Assembly: GCF_023074835.1 (NCBI RefSeq)
Contig: NZ_JALLGW010000001.1
Coordinates: 372,001-436,000 of the forward strand
Direction: 5' to 3'
From: Halomarina salina
GTDB taxonomy: Archaea > Halobacteriota > Halobacteria > Halobacteriales > Haloarculaceae
DNA: 64,000 nucleotides
Positions 35,961 to 63,329 of the stretch are shown here, one piece after another (the first letter of the stretch is position 1; the number at the start of each line of letters is the position of its first letter). Under the pieces are notes generated by a model. It had not been told where the DNA came from. It saw nothing but the letters and a program-made list of their open reading frames with translations, and did no database searches. The position numbers were made by a program, and so were the translations under genes.

Positions 35961-36764
35961 ATGAACGGTGAGGACGGCCGCGACGTCGCGGTGTTGCGGA
36001 ACAAACGCGACGCTTCGCGCTACCAGATTCTCGTCGCCATCGCGGCGCGCCAGCCCGCCGTGAGCCAGCAGGAGATCGCGAACGCGGTCGGCGTCACCGC
36101 GCAGGCGGTCAGCGAGTACGTCCGCGAACTCGTCGAGTCCGGTGCCGTCGAGAAACACGGCCGGGGGCGCTACGAGGTGACCAAGGAGGGCGTCGACTGG
36201 CTCATCTCACGGACCGAGGACCTCCGGGCGTTCACCGAGTTCGTCACCGAGGAGGTCATCGGTCAGGTCGACGCCGACACCGCCATCGCCGACGGGGCGC
36301 TCGACCCCGGTGACCAGGTCACGCTGGCGATGAACGACGGCGTCCTCCACGCCACGCCGGGCGAGGAGGGCGGTGCGACCGCACGGGCGCTCACCGCCGC
36401 CGAGACGGGGGAGGACGTGGGGGTCGCGGAGTTCGAGGGGCTGCTCGACTACGAGACGGGACAGGTCACCGTCGTCGTCCTCCCCGACGTCCGCGAGGGC
36501 GGCAGTCGCGCGGTGTCCCCCGACGAGGTGGCGTCGCTCGCCGACGACCACGACCTGCTGGCGACGGCCGGAGTGGAGGCGCTGGCGGCGGCACGGCGTG
36601 CCGACCGCGACCCGGACGTCCGGTTCGGCACCGCACAGGCGGTCCAGGAGGCGGCGACGCGTGGCCTGTCGGTGCTGTTGCTCGTCGGGCCGCGGGCGCT
36701 CGCCGCGCACACGGACCGACTCCGCGAGGGGTCGGTCGGGTACGAACTCGTTGATGCGAGATAG
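35961..36764 (+). CDS. Winged-helix transcriptional regulator (DUF7839-type)
   Basis: 267 residues from ATG 35961. N-terminal wHTH (about 10-85): SRYQILVAIAARQPAVSQQE, VGVTAQAVSEYVRELVESG, then wing GRYEVTKEG. The C-terminal 180 residues form a conserved archaeal ligand-like domain (DPGDQVTLAMNDGVLHATPG; later GLSVLLLVGPRALAAHTDRL). Such MarR-like archaeal regulators have no known ligand. Followed by a cluster of intergenic hairpins. Confidence 0.78.
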   Translation: MNGEDGRDVAVLRNKRDASRYQILVAIAARQPAVSQQEIANAVGVTAQAVSEYVRELVESGAVEKHGRGRYEVTKEGVDWLISRTEDLRAFTEFVTEEVIGQVDADTAIADGALDPGDQVTLAMNDGVLHATPGEEGGATARALTAAETGEDVGVAEFEGLLDYETGQVTVVVLPDVREGGSRAVSPDEVASLADDHDLLATAGVEALAAARRADRDPDVRFGTAQAVQEAATRGLSVLLLVGPRALAAHTDRLREGSVGYELVDAR

Positions 36765-36765
36765 C

Positions 36766-36961
36766 GAGGCTCGAGCGCAGCGAAAGCCTCGGAGATACCG
36801 AGCGGGGAGCGAAGCGACCCGCGAGGTGAGCGCGATTCGGAGCGAACACAGTGAGCGAGAATCGCGGAAGCTCGAACGGCGACCGGAGGGTGCCGTGAGA
36901 TAGCGAGACGCGAGTGTAACGAGCGTCTGGGAGGTACCGAGCGGGGAGTACATCGAACCGC
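36766..36961. repeat. Cluster of five intergenic hairpins with near-identical loops
   Basis: GAGGCT/AGCCTC (36766-36790), GCGGG/CCCGC (36802-36822, loop GAGCGAAGCGA), GCGATTC/GAATCGC (36832-36865), AGACGC/GCGTCT (36906-36928, loop GAGTGTAACGA) and GCGG/CCGC (36941-36961). Stems differ while loops keep the GAG(C/T)G..CGA pattern. The second and fifth are nearly the same sequence and also match 22880-22900. Confidence 0.65.
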
Positions 36962-40764: not shown

Positions 40765-41022
40765 ATGGGACGCACGGAGCTCAAAGCGGCGGGCCGCGAA
40801 CTGGTCGTCGCTTCCCGACTGGCGGATGGAACCGTCGAACGACGACTGCACGGCGAGGTCATCGAACTCACGAAACTCTCTCTCGCGGAGGACGTCCGAC
40901 CGACCGGCCTCGACGACCGCATCGAGACGCTCCGCGACCTCGCGCCGGACGCCGGTGCCGGGGGCGAACACGTCGAACGGGCGCTCGACCACGTCGAGAC
41001 CGCCCGAGAGACGGTGCAGTGA
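40765..41022 (+). CDS. Small helical-bundle protein (paralogue A)
   Basis: 85 residues from ATG 40765, charged, predicted all-helical: MGRTELKAAGRELVVASRLA, then SLAEDVRPTGLDDRIETLRD and GGEHVERALDHVETARETV. It aligns along its whole length with the next gene (shared ELTTAA/ELKAAG start, LDRH/LDDRIxxLR, and EHVxxALDHVE end). Probably of the haloarchaeal DUF7553 type. Function unknown. Confidence 0.62.
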   Translation: MGRTELKAAGRELVVASRLADGTVERRLHGEVIELTKLSLAEDVRPTGLDDRIETLRDLAPDAGAGGEHVERALDHVETARETVQ

Positions 41023-41062
41023 CGAACGCAGGGTTTTCGTCGTCGGTGTCGTAACGCGAACC

Positions 41063-41329
41063 ATGAGCCGAGCAGAACTCACCACCGCAGCAGAGCACCT
41101 CGAGACAGCCGCGGCCCACGCCGAAGGGGAGCGACGCGACCGCATCGAGAGCCAGGCGGAGTCGCTCACGGACCTCGCCGACCGCGACCGCGGCCCCGAC
41201 CAGGGCCGACTGGACCGCCACATGAACGTCCTGCGGGAACTCTCGGCCGAGGACGACGAGGCGTCCGAACACGTCCGGGACGCGCTCGACCACGTCGAGC
41301 AGTACCGCAGCACGGTCGGCGGAATCTGA
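41063..41329 (+). CDS. Small helical-bundle protein (paralogue B)
   Basis: 88 residues from ATG 41063: MSRAELTTAAEHLETAAAHA, RDRGPDQGRLDRHMNVLREL and EDDEASEHVRDALDHVEQYR. A tandem paralogue of the gene 40 bp upstream, so a local duplication. Gln/Glu-rich helices without membrane segments. Confidence 0.62.
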   Translation: MSRAELTTAAEHLETAAAHAEGERRDRIESQAESLTDLADRDRGPDQGRLDRHMNVLRELSAEDDEASEHVRDALDHVEQYRSTVGGI

Positions 41330-41451
41330 GGGCGGGGCGAACGGCAGGGACGGTACCCGAGGACGCGACCTGAACACCCAGTGTGACGACCGACCTCCTC
41401 GATTTTCCGACTCCGCCAGCGAGTCGCCGTCGGCCGAGCTGCCGCCCGTGG

Positions 41452-42153
41452 TCAGTCGACGATGTCCTGCACGTCAGGGTGGTCGAGTAGCACGGTGAGT
41501 TCCGACGACCGTTCCCGGCGCGGTGTCTCCTGAAGCTCGTCCCGGCGGCGCTGCCAGTGGACGTGTCGCCGCAGGACGTAGACAGGCACCTCCTCGATAC
41601 CCGCGAACTCCGCCAGTGCGTGGCGGTGGAACCCCTCGCTCCAGACAAGTTCGCCGTCACGGCCGACGAGGACCAGCGGTTCCATCTCGTGGATGTACTC
41701 GATGTCGGCCGGTGAGTCGTACGTCGTCTCGTAGTTCGGTCGATACCCGTCCGTCCGCATCCGTTCGTAGAGGTCGTCGAGCGCCGAGCAGCGACGCTCT
41801 CTGAACGCTCCGATGCTCTCGAATCCACGGACGGTCTCTCCCTCGTCGAACCGCGCCTCGGCCCGTTCGTAGAGCCGCGTCTCCTCCCAGTCACGTCCCT
41901 CGACGAACCGTTGTTCCAGCCCCCGGTACGTTCCGGTCTCCCGGAGCCGCTCGCAGTGTTCCTGGCGGTCCCAGTCGCCGTCCATCACCGCCCCGAGCCC
42001 CCACTTCAGGGAGACGACGTTGTAGAACTCCACGTCGGCAGGGTCAACCCATCTCACTTCCCACGGGTCCGCAGGCGCGTCGTATCGCCGTTCGTTACAC
42101 CACCGGTGCCACTCCGTCCCGAGGCGGAATCGGTCGAGGACCACTGTGTTCAC
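41452..42153 (-). CDS. Hypothetical haloarchaeal protein with ParB-like start
   Basis: 233 residues. The first part (WHRWCNERRYDAPADPWEVR, then WVDPADVEFYNVVSLKWGLG) and the later EGFHRHALAEFAGIEEVPVY resemble the strand-turn-strand and helix pattern of ParB/sulfiredoxin-like folds, where a substrate or residue is checked and a neighbour specified; the match is weak. Proteins of this look occur near carbohydrate genes in haloarchaea. It ends in a long charged helix. It is followed by tRNA-tail repeats in the intergenic region to its right. Confidence 0.5.
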   Translation of the reverse strand: MNTVVLDRFRLGTEWHRWCNERRYDAPADPWEVRWVDPADVEFYNVVSLKWGLGAVMDGDWDRQEHCERLRETGTYRGLEQRFVEGRDWEETRLYERAEARFDEGETVRGFESIGAFRERRCSALDDLYERMRTDGYRPNYETTYDSPADIEYIHEMEPLVLVGRDGELVWSEGFHRHALAEFAGIEEVPVYVLRRHVHWQRRRDELQETPRRERSSELTVLLDHPDVQDIVD

Positions 42154-42229
42154 GGCGAAAGCGATGTGCCGGCAAATCCGTTGTGTCGTCGCCTCGGCGA
42201 GAACGCTCGTCGTGTTGCGTCTTCAGAAG

Positions 42230-42583
42230 TGGGCTCGGGCGGATTCGAACCACGCCCGAGAACCTGCTCGCTACCGCTCGCAGAACCTCGGTCTGGTACG
42301 AACCTCCCTCGGTTCACGGTTCGCGCTCGCTGTCGCTCGCGCAGAAGGAGTGGGCTCGGGCGGATTCGAACTACGTCGAGACGGTCGCTCGCTATCACTC
42401 GCGCTGCGTCTCGCCTCGTTCGGAATCCTACTCACGTTCAGAAACCCCCGTCGCTGTCGCTCACGGGGTTTCTTGGGCTCGGGCGGATTCGAACCTCAGT
42501 CGCTCACTCCGTTCGCTCCCTGCTTCGAATCGCCCTCTCGTCACAGATTTGTGACTCACCGTTCGGTTCGTCACAAAATCTGA
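42230..42583 (-). repeat. Three tandem copies of the tRNA-Val 3' end (tail repeats)
   Basis: The 21-24 bp terminus of the adjacent tRNA (plus strand TGGGCTCGGGCGGATTCGAA) recurs at 42230, 42351 and 42474, and the real tRNA end lies at 42584, giving a period of 121, 123 and 110 bp. Each copy is the 3' arm of an imperfect palindrome: its complement lies 5' in the minus-strand sense, for example GGATTCCGAAC...GTTCGAATCC. Each spacer also holds smaller stems such as AGAAACCCC/GGGGTTTCT (42440-42473) and CGAGACG/CGTCTCG (42377-42413) with GAGCGACAGCGA-like loops. Confidence 0.8.
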
Positions 42584-42657
42584 TGGGCTCGGGCGGATTC
42601 GAACCACCGACCTCAGCCTTGTAAAGGCCGCGTCATAACCGACTAGACCACGAGCCC
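42584..42657 (-). tRNA. tRNA-Val (anticodon TAC)
   Basis: 74 nt cloverleaf: acceptor GGGCTCG/CGAGCCC with discriminator A, D stem GTC/GAC, anticodon stem CGGCC/GGCTG (one G-U) with loop TTTACAA giving anticodon TAC, five-nt variable loop AGGTC, T stem GGTGG/CCGCC (one U-G) with loop TTCGAAT. No CCA is encoded and no intron is present. Its 3' end is followed by three repeats of its own terminus. Confidence 0.95.
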
Positions 42658-42725
42658 TCGTTCGTTCATTCCGATGCCCGCCGATAACCCTTGCGACAGC
42701 GACCGGGCGAAGACGGAGTCCAGAC

Positions 42726-44162
42726 TCAGGCCTCGGTCGCCACCAGCGCGACGATAGCGACCAGCGCCAGCGCCAGCGCGACGGTGCCAGCACCCGACGG
42801 CACCGACGCGGCGGGACCGACGACGAACACGGTGAGCATCGCCACCGTGACGCCGACGACACCGACGAGGACGCTGGCGGTGGTGTGCGCGAGTACGCCC
42901 TGTCGGCCGTCGACCGACGGGAGTTCCGCGCCGAGCGTGGCGGCGTACTCGCCACCGTCCCAGACGAGCAGGATACCCGCGAACCCGGCGAACACGAGAA
43001 TCGCGGGGGCGCTCTGTTCGGCGACCACGAGCACCGCGAGCCCGAACAGCCCCGCCGCGAGGCCGTGCCCCGACAGCGGGACGAGTCCGGGGCCGTCCCG
43101 GAGGGTGACGAAGTCCCAGGCGACGAACACGCCGAGGAGGACGACGATCATCACGAGCGCGACGAGGCCTATCGCTCCGAACCCGCCGAGCAGCGGCGCG
43201 ACGGGCGTCACGGACGCCGAGGGGAGCGTGAGCAACCACGCTGCACCGACGAGCGGGACGACCAGACCGCCGGCGGCGTCGGCCGCCGTTCCGGTCGGGT
43301 CCTCGTCGCCCACGCCGACGGCGAATCGCTGTATCTGCCGCCCGACGAGGACGACGCCACAGACGCCGAGCGGGAACAGGAGGACCGCGAGGACGACGCC
43401 GGATTCGAGCACGGCGGTGATGACGCCCCCGAGCACCGAAAGCTGGGCGAGCACCCAGTCGAGCAGTCCCGGCGCGAGCATGGCGACGTACACCTCCGCG
43501 ACGAACCCGACGACGAGCAGCCGCGGGGCAGACCTGACGTCGGCGACGGTCATGCCCATCTCGGAGAGCCGGTGTGAGTGGACCGACTCCCGTTCCGGGA
43601 GCCACCGTTCGAGTGTCCGCGTCGTCGGGGGAAGTGCGAGCAACAGCGCCACCGCCGCCACCTGGAGCGACACCAGCGCGACGAACGGCGTCGAGGTAGC
43701 GACGTTCCACAGCGCCACGGCACCGTCGGCGACGACGGCGAGCGCGGCCGGGTTGGTGAGCAACGAGAGCGCGACGACGAGGACCAGCGCCAGCACCGAC
43801 GACTGGAGCACGTCGGGGAACCGCGACTCGGTGAGAGAGCGCGCGCCGAGGGACACGCCGAGCGCGAGCACGGCCAGCGCGCCGGTCCCGACGACGGCGG
43901 TCTGGACCGGCGGGTAGGTGTAGCCGATGCCGAGCGCGAGCATCCCGAGACCGCAGACCGTGGCGATGCTCGTGGCGGCCCGCCGTCCCGCCGAGGCCCC
44001 GTCGGGACAGGCCACGGCCCACGAGACGCCGAGCACACCGACGACGGCGACCAGCGCCTGGACGCCGACGCCGACCGCGTAGCTCAGTCCGACGGCCAGC
44101 ACGGCAGCGATGCCGAGCGTCAGTCGTCTCCCGAAGCGGTTGGGGCGACGGTCGGCGCTCAC
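42726..44162 (-). CDS. Multi-spanning membrane protein of the DUF58/DUF4129 operon (DUF7519-type)
   Basis: 478 residues with about 12-14 hydrophobic helices. Starts with GTG 44162 in a GTGA overlap with the DUF58 gene. Hydrophobic blocks such as LTLGIAAVLAVGLSYAVGVG recur throughout and a charged soluble stretch LERWLPERESVHSHRLSEMG lies near the middle. In haloarchaea such a protein is typically the last gene of the DUF4129-DUF58 cluster. Function unknown. Its stop lies about 70 bp from tRNA-Val. Confidence 0.7.
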   Translation of the reverse strand: MSADRRPNRFGRRLTLGIAAVLAVGLSYAVGVGVQALVAVVGVLGVSWAVACPDGASAGRRAATSIATVCGLGMLALGIGYTYPPVQTAVVGTGALAVLALGVSLGARSLTESRFPDVLQSSVLALVLVVALSLLTNPAALAVVADGAVALWNVATSTPFVALVSLQVAAVALLLALPPTTRTLERWLPERESVHSHRLSEMGMTVADVRSAPRLLVVGFVAEVYVAMLAPGLLDWVLAQLSVLGGVITAVLESGVVLAVLLFPLGVCGVVLVGRQIQRFAVGVGDEDPTGTAADAAGGLVVPLVGAAWLLTLPSASVTPVAPLLGGFGAIGLVALVMIVVLLGVFVAWDFVTLRDGPGLVPLSGHGLAAGLFGLAVLVVAEQSAPAILVFAGFAGILLVWDGGEYAATLGAELPSVDGRQGVLAHTTASVLVGVVGVTVAMLTVFVVGPAASVPSGAGTVALALALVAIVALVATEA

Positions 44163-63058: not shown

Positions 63059-63285
63059 CGTCCTGACGGAGTCTCACGCGAACGGAGTGAGCGTGAGGCA
63101 CGTCAGGGCGTGAACGATGAGGCGAGTCGCTCACCGAGCGACTCGACGAATAAGTGAGCGTCCTGACGGAGATTTGAACTCGCCGAGACTCGCTGGCGCT
63201 CGTCTCGTCTGCTCAAATCTCCGCGTTTGAGTTTCCTGCAGCGCGGCCGACTCGCTACGCTCGTCGGCGTTGCGCTGCAGAGAAA
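63059..63285 (-). repeat. Two further copies of the tRNA-Arg 3' end with palindromic spacers
   Basis: The 3' terminus of the adjacent tRNA-Arg fragment (plus strand CGTCCTGACGGAGATTTGAA) recurs at 63159-63181 (23 nt matched) and 63059-63071 (13 nt), spaced 100 and 127 bp. Between them are large hairpins: 63232-63285 (CTGCAGCGC/GCGCTGCAG with inner GCCGAC/GTCGGC and loop GAGCGTAGCGA) and 63171-63220 (GAGATTTGA/TCAAATCTC with inner CGAGAC/GTCTCG and loop GAGCGCCAGCGA on the minus strand). Confidence 0.75.
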
Positions 63286-63329
63286 CGTCCTGACGGAGAT
63301 TTGAACTCCGGTCCCTGGCTCCGCAAGCC
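63286..63329 (-). pseudogene. Truncated tRNA-Arg(GCG), 3' half only (att-like)
   Basis: Minus strand, positions about 29-73 of a tRNA: anticodon stem 3' bases and loop TTGCGGA (anticodon GCG), variable loop GGAC, T stem CGGAG/CTCCG with loop TTCAAAT, acceptor 3' strand TCAGGAC and discriminator G. The expected 5' half (a GTCCTGA acceptor strand and D arm) is absent from the next 200 bp; the anticodon stem fails to pair beyond three base pairs. This is the pattern left when an element integrates into a tRNA gene. Confidence 0.8.

Follow-up and report, generated by a model that had tools for sequence, protein, structure and literature searches.

The gene for tRNA-Val(TAC) of Halomarina salina is followed by three downstream units of 110-123 bp, each of which terminates in a copy of positions 53-73 of the same tRNA. 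Such arrays match their own tRNA, in one orientation; their units are structured and covary with the tRNA, the copies decay with a polarity, unit number turns over between congeners, and modules are shared between tRNAs with identical cores. The best explanation, which we hold with middling confidence, is that mini-elements of about 95-135 bp without genes build up at tRNA 3′ ends, and that the tRNA-Val copies are one such array.

The window analysed here is a stretch of 64,000 nucleotides. Because the tRNA-Val(TAC) gene is encoded on the minus strand, its downstream side has the lower coordinates (Table 1). There are exactly four occurrences of the 20-mer GGGCTCGGGCGGATTCGAAC in the window, all on one strand: once in tRNA-Val and once each at 42475, 42352 and 42231, with start-to-start spacings of 110, 123 and 121. 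Shuffled windows contained no match to this 20-mer, and none was found elsewhere in the 4.46-Mb genome with two mismatches allowed. Thus, the threefold recurrence of the tRNA-Val 3′ end, which an earlier note on this DNA had pointed out, is real. The same note placed each copy in a palindrome. This holds for unit 1, where GGGCGATTCGAA ... TTCGAATCCGCCC leave one base unpaired, and for unit 2 with a bulge, but the palindrome of unit 3 is weak. The note also claimed that the copies share a G-U variant of the T-stem. This part has to be corrected: the copies carry only the 3′ strand of the T-stem, and therefore what they share is only the 3′ base of that pair. Two genomes of another family (G239 and G284) have a tRNA-Val unit that agrees with hairpin A of unit 1 at 41 of 41 positions, and Haloferax profundi, which like Haloferax prahovense has an array at tRNA-Val, agrees with it at 39 of 41. 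At locus L054, downstream of tRNA-Val, the hairpin B part alone is present in four tandem copies of about 47 bp each, without hairpin A.

Table 1. Features of the two tRNA-end arrays in the window (positions counted from its first nucleotide).
Feature	Position	Strand	Remarks
tRNA-Val(TAC)	42584..42657	-	ARAGORN and Rfam; copied core (positions 53-73) at 42584-42604
Hairpin A, unit 1	42543..42583	-	stem - GA - ACC - GAAC loop - GGT - GA - stem
Hairpin B, unit 1	42474..42536	-	left arm GGGCGATTCGAA, loop, right arm = core copy 1 (42474-42494); covariance model 73.9 bits, E=1.7e-16
Hairpin A, unit 2	42439..42473	-	GA-GC-GACA-GC cap; from sequence
Hairpin B, unit 2	42351..42432	-	terminates in core copy 2 (42351-42371); covariance model 26.1 bits
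Hairpin A, unit 3	42304..42350	-	GCGC-GA-GC-GACA-GC-GA-GCGC; from sequence
Hairpin B, unit 3	42230..42309	-	terminates in core copy 3 (42230-42250); left arm degenerate; covariance model 28 bits
3′ part of tRNA-Arg(GCG), 44 nt	63286..63329	-	distal end of an integrated element of about 14 kb
Second array, unit 1	63159..63285	-	hairpins A and B; core copy of tRNA-Arg(GCG) at 63159-63179
Second array, unit 2, short type	63059..63158	-	last 14 nt only (ACTCCGTCAGGACG, 63059-63072); GA-capped hairpin on the opposite strand

Over 200 copies drawn from several genomes, the block that is copied proves to be 21 nt long and runs from G53 to the discriminator A73. Identity along the copies is at background upstream of position 52 (0.77 at position 52 itself) and from position 74 downstream. 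Because the copies stop at A73 without CCA, their source is the genomic sequence and not the mature tRNA. In the direction of the tRNA, a unit is ordered as core (G53-A73), T-rich start, hairpin A, linker and hairpin B. The haloarchaeal core motif is GTTCRAATC. Hairpin B begins with a left arm antisense to the T-loop and T-stem (consensus GRGGGATTYGAA), continues with a loop (NCAGGGAGCGA...GCGACCGTGG) and leads into the next core. Many of the hairpins have a common cap, stem-GA-RC-(GNA, GNYA or GNAB)-GY-GA-stem; the tRNA-sense strand carries 143 GA-capped hairpins, the opposite strand 3. In a short type of unit (Ala, Arg-CCT and Arg-CCG), just the last 14 nt or so are copied. The unit period is mostly 95-135 bp and the unit bodies measure 79-141 bp (5-95% range), which leaves no space for genes. 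Beyond the tRNAs, the window contains 12 GA caps, compared with 1.6 expected, and a cluster of GA-capped hairpins (GAGCGAAGCGA and similar) is present on the plus strand at 36750-36960 with no tRNA near.

Of 189 units, 183 have a left arm that fits the unit's own tRNA more closely than it fits others. Alignment of 31 units showed that 12 of the 19 hairpin pairs vary on both sides, with 62 such cells as compared with 21.5 in shuffles (none of 500 shuffles was as good); since these units were selected via the arm, this count leans towards structure. The cleaner covariation test is one in which the arm was found by a generic motif only. Here, pairing with the unit's own core exceeded that in row shuffles at positions 57, 59, 62, 63 and 64 (z of 4-7; 0 of 1000 shuffles), and when one unit was taken per isoacceptor the excess was seen in 300 of 300 draws. 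The hairpins also fold better than shuffled sequences, with a mean z of -3.4 by RNA parameters and -2.5 by DNA parameters, energies that favour neither a DNA-level nor an RNA reading.

The earlier note described the feature at tRNA-Val. It is genome-wide and not local. When the 450 nt next to each tRNA were scanned with at most 3 mismatches of 19, own-core copies were found downstream of 81 of 175 tRNAs in seven haloarchaeal genomes from three families; the same tRNAs had none upstream and none in antisense orientation downstream. As for H. salina itself, about half of the 43 listed tRNA genes are followed by one to three copies of their last 18 nt, of which the first begins 80-206 nt downstream. 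No such copy lies upstream of these 43 genes or in reverse orientation, and some 20 tRNAs lack a clear copy of their own end. Of the 12 matches of a strict hairpin pattern in the genome, 11 stand directly behind a tRNA and one lies within a tRNA-Ser. The hairpin covariance model, built from 31 units, gave 28 matches, about 26 of them immediately behind tRNAs. One high-scoring unit (contig C1:2500103-2500162) is 1.3 kb away from tRNA-Leu(TAG) on its downstream side, a distance suggestive of a small intervening insert, and one weak match (C1:836834-836888; E=1.9e-4), with no listed tRNA near, is possibly an orphan unit.

Two grounds for doubt had been raised in the earlier note, namely matches at random frequency and absence from related species, and neither is borne out. 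Shuffles gave no matches and swapped tRNA-core pairings gave 4 in 3,586, and the covariance model has matches in 75 of 79 near-complete genomes of the order; G010, G060, G064 and G097 gave none. Outside the order, two genomes in a 295-genome sample of the phylum have one weak match each. All 30 matches sampled have a tRNA on the same strand within about 270 nt upstream. A pattern specific for tRNA-Val, run over 84,980 species, returned 21 records, all from Halobacteria. In viral contigs, nearly all of the matches listed for a unit pattern were tRNA-like (mostly anticodon arms of tRNA-Ser), the single genuine unit being behind a tRNA-Glu in a haloarchaeal contig; a stricter unit pattern had no match there. 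Blastn of the array region against plasmids and phages gave nothing beyond weak similarity of the tRNA type.

Arrays change quickly. The number of units at one tRNA varies from 0 to 3 between congeners. Where a module stands at different ranks in two congeners, the extra units sit between the shared module and the tRNA; tRNA-proximal extra units were seen at Gly-CCC, Gly-GCC, Lys-CTT, Arg-CCT, Ser-GGA and Val. Thirty-seven arrays have at least two copies; in 22 of them mismatches are more numerous in the distal-most copy than in the proximal one, and in 1 they are less numerous (p=6e-6). It should be mentioned that this is the strict test: a version allowing 7 mismatches was dropped because of contamination by chance matches. 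Counts of distal differences between congeners are inflated by decayed copies and were excluded from the evidence. Growth of arrays at the tRNA end is thus well supported. Within a genome, tRNAs with identical cores shared a near-identical hairpin-A module in 3 of 7 pairs, namely tRNA-Lys CTT with TTT in three species, and such sharing despite at least 3 core differences was found in 13 of 2,356 pairs. Recent growth shows itself as perfect duplicates; for example, one genome (G120) has four identical tandem units of 111 bp. Hairpin modules A and B have been reshuffled where they join: 52 pairs have only A in common and 44 only B. Such free combination also calls for recombination close to, or at, the left arm.

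tRNA 3′ ends are classic landing sites for mobile DNA. In the mini-element explanation, an element would consist of hairpin A, hairpin B and a core, and the core would be the last 21 nt of its own tRNA (about 14 nt in the second type). A new unit would insert at the tRNA gene itself, and the tRNA would stay whole. Older units would be displaced outward and then decay, giving an array similar to those of CRISPR or integrons with the newest unit nearest the tRNA. Insertion could be the work of a site-specific recombinase acting in trans, the likeliest being a tyrosine recombinase that crosses over in the T-loop, and hairpin B may be a folded single-strand attachment site, the stem of which would mimic the T-arm DNA of the tRNA. 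A tyrosine recombinase acting at the T-loop would be the most natural agent because the identity block spans G53/T54 to the tRNA end. Identity from the T-loop to the tRNA end is known for T-loop integration sites. Archaeal tRNA integration sites have been reviewed (PMC8371274). It is likely that the units are individually mobile, although the mobility is putative. Of the three explanations that the earlier note had offered, the replicating or serially inserted repeat is supported by the polarity, the comparison of congeners and the core-restricted sharing. Remnants of ordinary integration are not supported, since such elements have genes, other identity blocks and no hairpins of this kind, and a decoy for RNase Z does not account for the antisense arm or the turnover of arrays.

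Several observations count against the mini-element explanation. Decay polarity could also arise by gene conversion that favours the tRNA-adjacent copy, and unequal crossing-over could yield identical tandem units. Insertion at the core alone does not explain the reshuffling of A and B at their junction, and the adaptation of units to some 29 different tRNA ends is left unexplained. Furthermore, a circle of 110 bp is near the lower size limit of double-stranded circles.

Integron arrays, built by attI x folded attC recombination, also grow at one fixed end. The attC site, too, is a hairpin that pairs imperfectly, with some bases unpaired and a loop that varies, and identity begins at G/TT in both systems. 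In contrast, the haloarchaeal units are gene-free, and their site is tRNA-specific (GTTCRAATC) instead of the attC core GTTRRRY. An integron integrase was considered as the agent and rejected: among eight tyrosine recombinases of H. salina (the stronger eight of ten PF00589 matches), the best PF00589 protein scored 41 bits against the TIGR02249 cut-off of 265. In other words, addition at a fixed end was found, and an IntI-class integrase and a GTTRRRY core were not.

The arrays might instead have been left behind by ordinary integrative plasmids or proviruses that had entered at tRNA genes, as these use the same tRNAs and SNJ2-type and other tRNA-targeted haloarchaeal elements have an identity block that extends to the tRNA 3′ end. 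Between tRNA-Val and an older unit, G149 has an element of 9.6 kb, whose SNJ2-type integrase shares 51% identity with the one of SNJ2. In H. salina, an element of about 14 kb (C1:435286-449378) with its own integrase (C1:448126-448572, outside the window) has separated tRNA-Arg(GCG), the gene of which is at C1:449306-449378 and also outside the window, from its array, now at 63059-63285. These elements, however, sit between the tRNA and a pre-existing array; because they wedge themselves in at this place, the arrays must be older than, and distinct from, such elements. The tRNA-targeted elements are kilobases long and encode an integrase, whereas the units are always about 110 bp, of the same anatomy and gene-free, with no integrase gene or cargo between the att copies. 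The identity block of the tRNA-Arg element is 44 nt, the ends of the 9.6-kb element have neither hairpin A nor hairpin B, and the attP regions of SNJ2, HHPV4, Halfgib1 and HRPV9 have short cores but no hairpin B. This origin is therefore largely refuted, and we consider it very improbable. Still less credible, and refuted as the general agent, is target-site duplication by a Cas1-type integrase of a casposon or CRISPR-like system. The proximal addition of units and the duplication of the repeat at each addition do resemble CRISPR adaptation, in which the newest repeat also stands at a fixed end, and casposons target tRNA 3′ ends (PMC6977970). However, Cas1 was missing from 7 of the 10 array-bearing genomes tested, H. 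salina and G120 among them, the antisense arm is unexplained, and the ‘spacers’ of the haloarchaeal arrays are conserved hairpins. The duplication reported for the M. mazei casposon is 14 bp and overlaps only the last 4 bp of the tRNA (PMC6977970).

Two further explanations are each unlikely but deserve more weight. One is that the units are structured trailer RNAs, co-transcribed with the tRNA, processed out and kept for an RNA function such as processing, tRNA supply or regulation. The folding energies above, the position of the hairpins on the sense strand and the strong covariation agree with this idea. A further precedent is rtT RNA, which, in a passage of PMC4986893 that cites Bosl and Kersten 1991, is reported to be released from transcripts of tyrT and other tRNA operons and to be linked to the stringent response. 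The rapid turnover of arrays between congeners and the tRNAs without a clear copy argue against it, and the covariation links the arm to the tRNA copy, which action at the DNA level explains equally well. Moreover, the loops are of the GNA, GNYA and GNAB types rather than GNRA, and resemble exceptionally stable DNA hairpin loops. The d(GCGAAGC) hairpin is an example of such a loop (PMC6582339). The other explanation dispenses with mobility: ancient units would be inherited with each tRNA, multiplied by unequal crossing-over or slippage between the 21-bp cores and, the cells being polyploid, kept uniform by gene conversion. This view agrees with the perfect tandem duplicates, with X-Y-X patterns and with the requirement of identical cores for module sharing, which conversion would also impose. 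In addition, copies and arms follow the local tRNA even where its sequence has diverged (G293/G295). On the other hand, the tRNA-proximal end gains modules unlike any neighbour, the decay polarity is strong, and the 41-nt module identical in Halomarina and another family is absent at tRNA-Val of a congener (G206), which has no array there.

The earlier note compared the layout with the tyrT repeats (rtT) of E. coli. The results for the tyr, lys and arg genes show that the analogy goes beyond layout. Behind tyrV of E. coli K-12, three copies of the last 14-18 nt of tRNA-Tyr follow one another at a spacing of 178 bp, together with a 10-nt exact antisense arm, GGGGAAGGAT (0 of 500 shuffles), and a GA-capped hairpin, GAGCGCCAGCGAG, on the sense strand. 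Twelve of 42 sampled E. coli tRNAs (tyr, lys and arg) have a copy of their own 3′ end outside whole tRNAs, although in tandem operons these are partly copies that belong to the neighbouring identical tRNA. To the eye, the lys and arg units also show putative antisense arms. The RtT model of Rfam (RF00391) matches the tyr and lys regions of E. coli K-12 but not the window: within 41000-44000, the tRNA was the only Rfam match (E<=1). Like rtT, the tRNA-Val array consists of tandem own-end copies downstream of the tRNA on the same strand, with an antisense arm and a GA-capped hairpin. The exact block of rtT begins at position 60, as in the haloarchaeal short type, whereas in the main type copying begins at position 53 and the T-loop takes part in the pairing; haloarchaeal units are, furthermore, about 110 bp long and stand at about half of the tRNAs of the seven sampled genomes. 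Thus, rtT repeats are the nearest known counterpart of the haloarchaeal arrays, which, by analogy, may be called a tRNA-adapted relative in kind, far more widespread and dynamic; the likeness is one of anatomy, and common descent would be conjectural. Between the repeated tRNA genes of E. coli argQ-argZ-argY-argV (L423) and lysT...lysQ (L424) there are own-3′-end copies with RtT-like hairpins, and the arg and lys tRNA genes may have multiplied together with these units.

A much wider proposal is tentative and rather doubtful at present. The units would be integron-like, single-strand-folded, gene-less cassettes that span domains, with the tRNA T-loop as fixed insertion site and a recombinase not yet recognised; they would be near-universal in Halobacteria, E. 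coli rtT would be a bacterial branch, and a time-ordered record of insertions would lie behind each tRNA gene.

Our search, confined to the open-access literature, found no earlier description of haloarchaeal tRNA-end arrays. The repeat class stands behind about half of the sampled tRNA genes and in nearly every near-complete haloarchaeal genome tested, and its copy and antisense arm co-evolve with each tRNA. The arrays may account for spurious small ORFs and false partial-tRNA calls beside haloarchaeal tRNAs. The long-unexplained rtT repeats of E. coli gain an archaeal counterpart, and because the arrays are ordered, their growth is directly measurable in tractable genera such as Haloferax.
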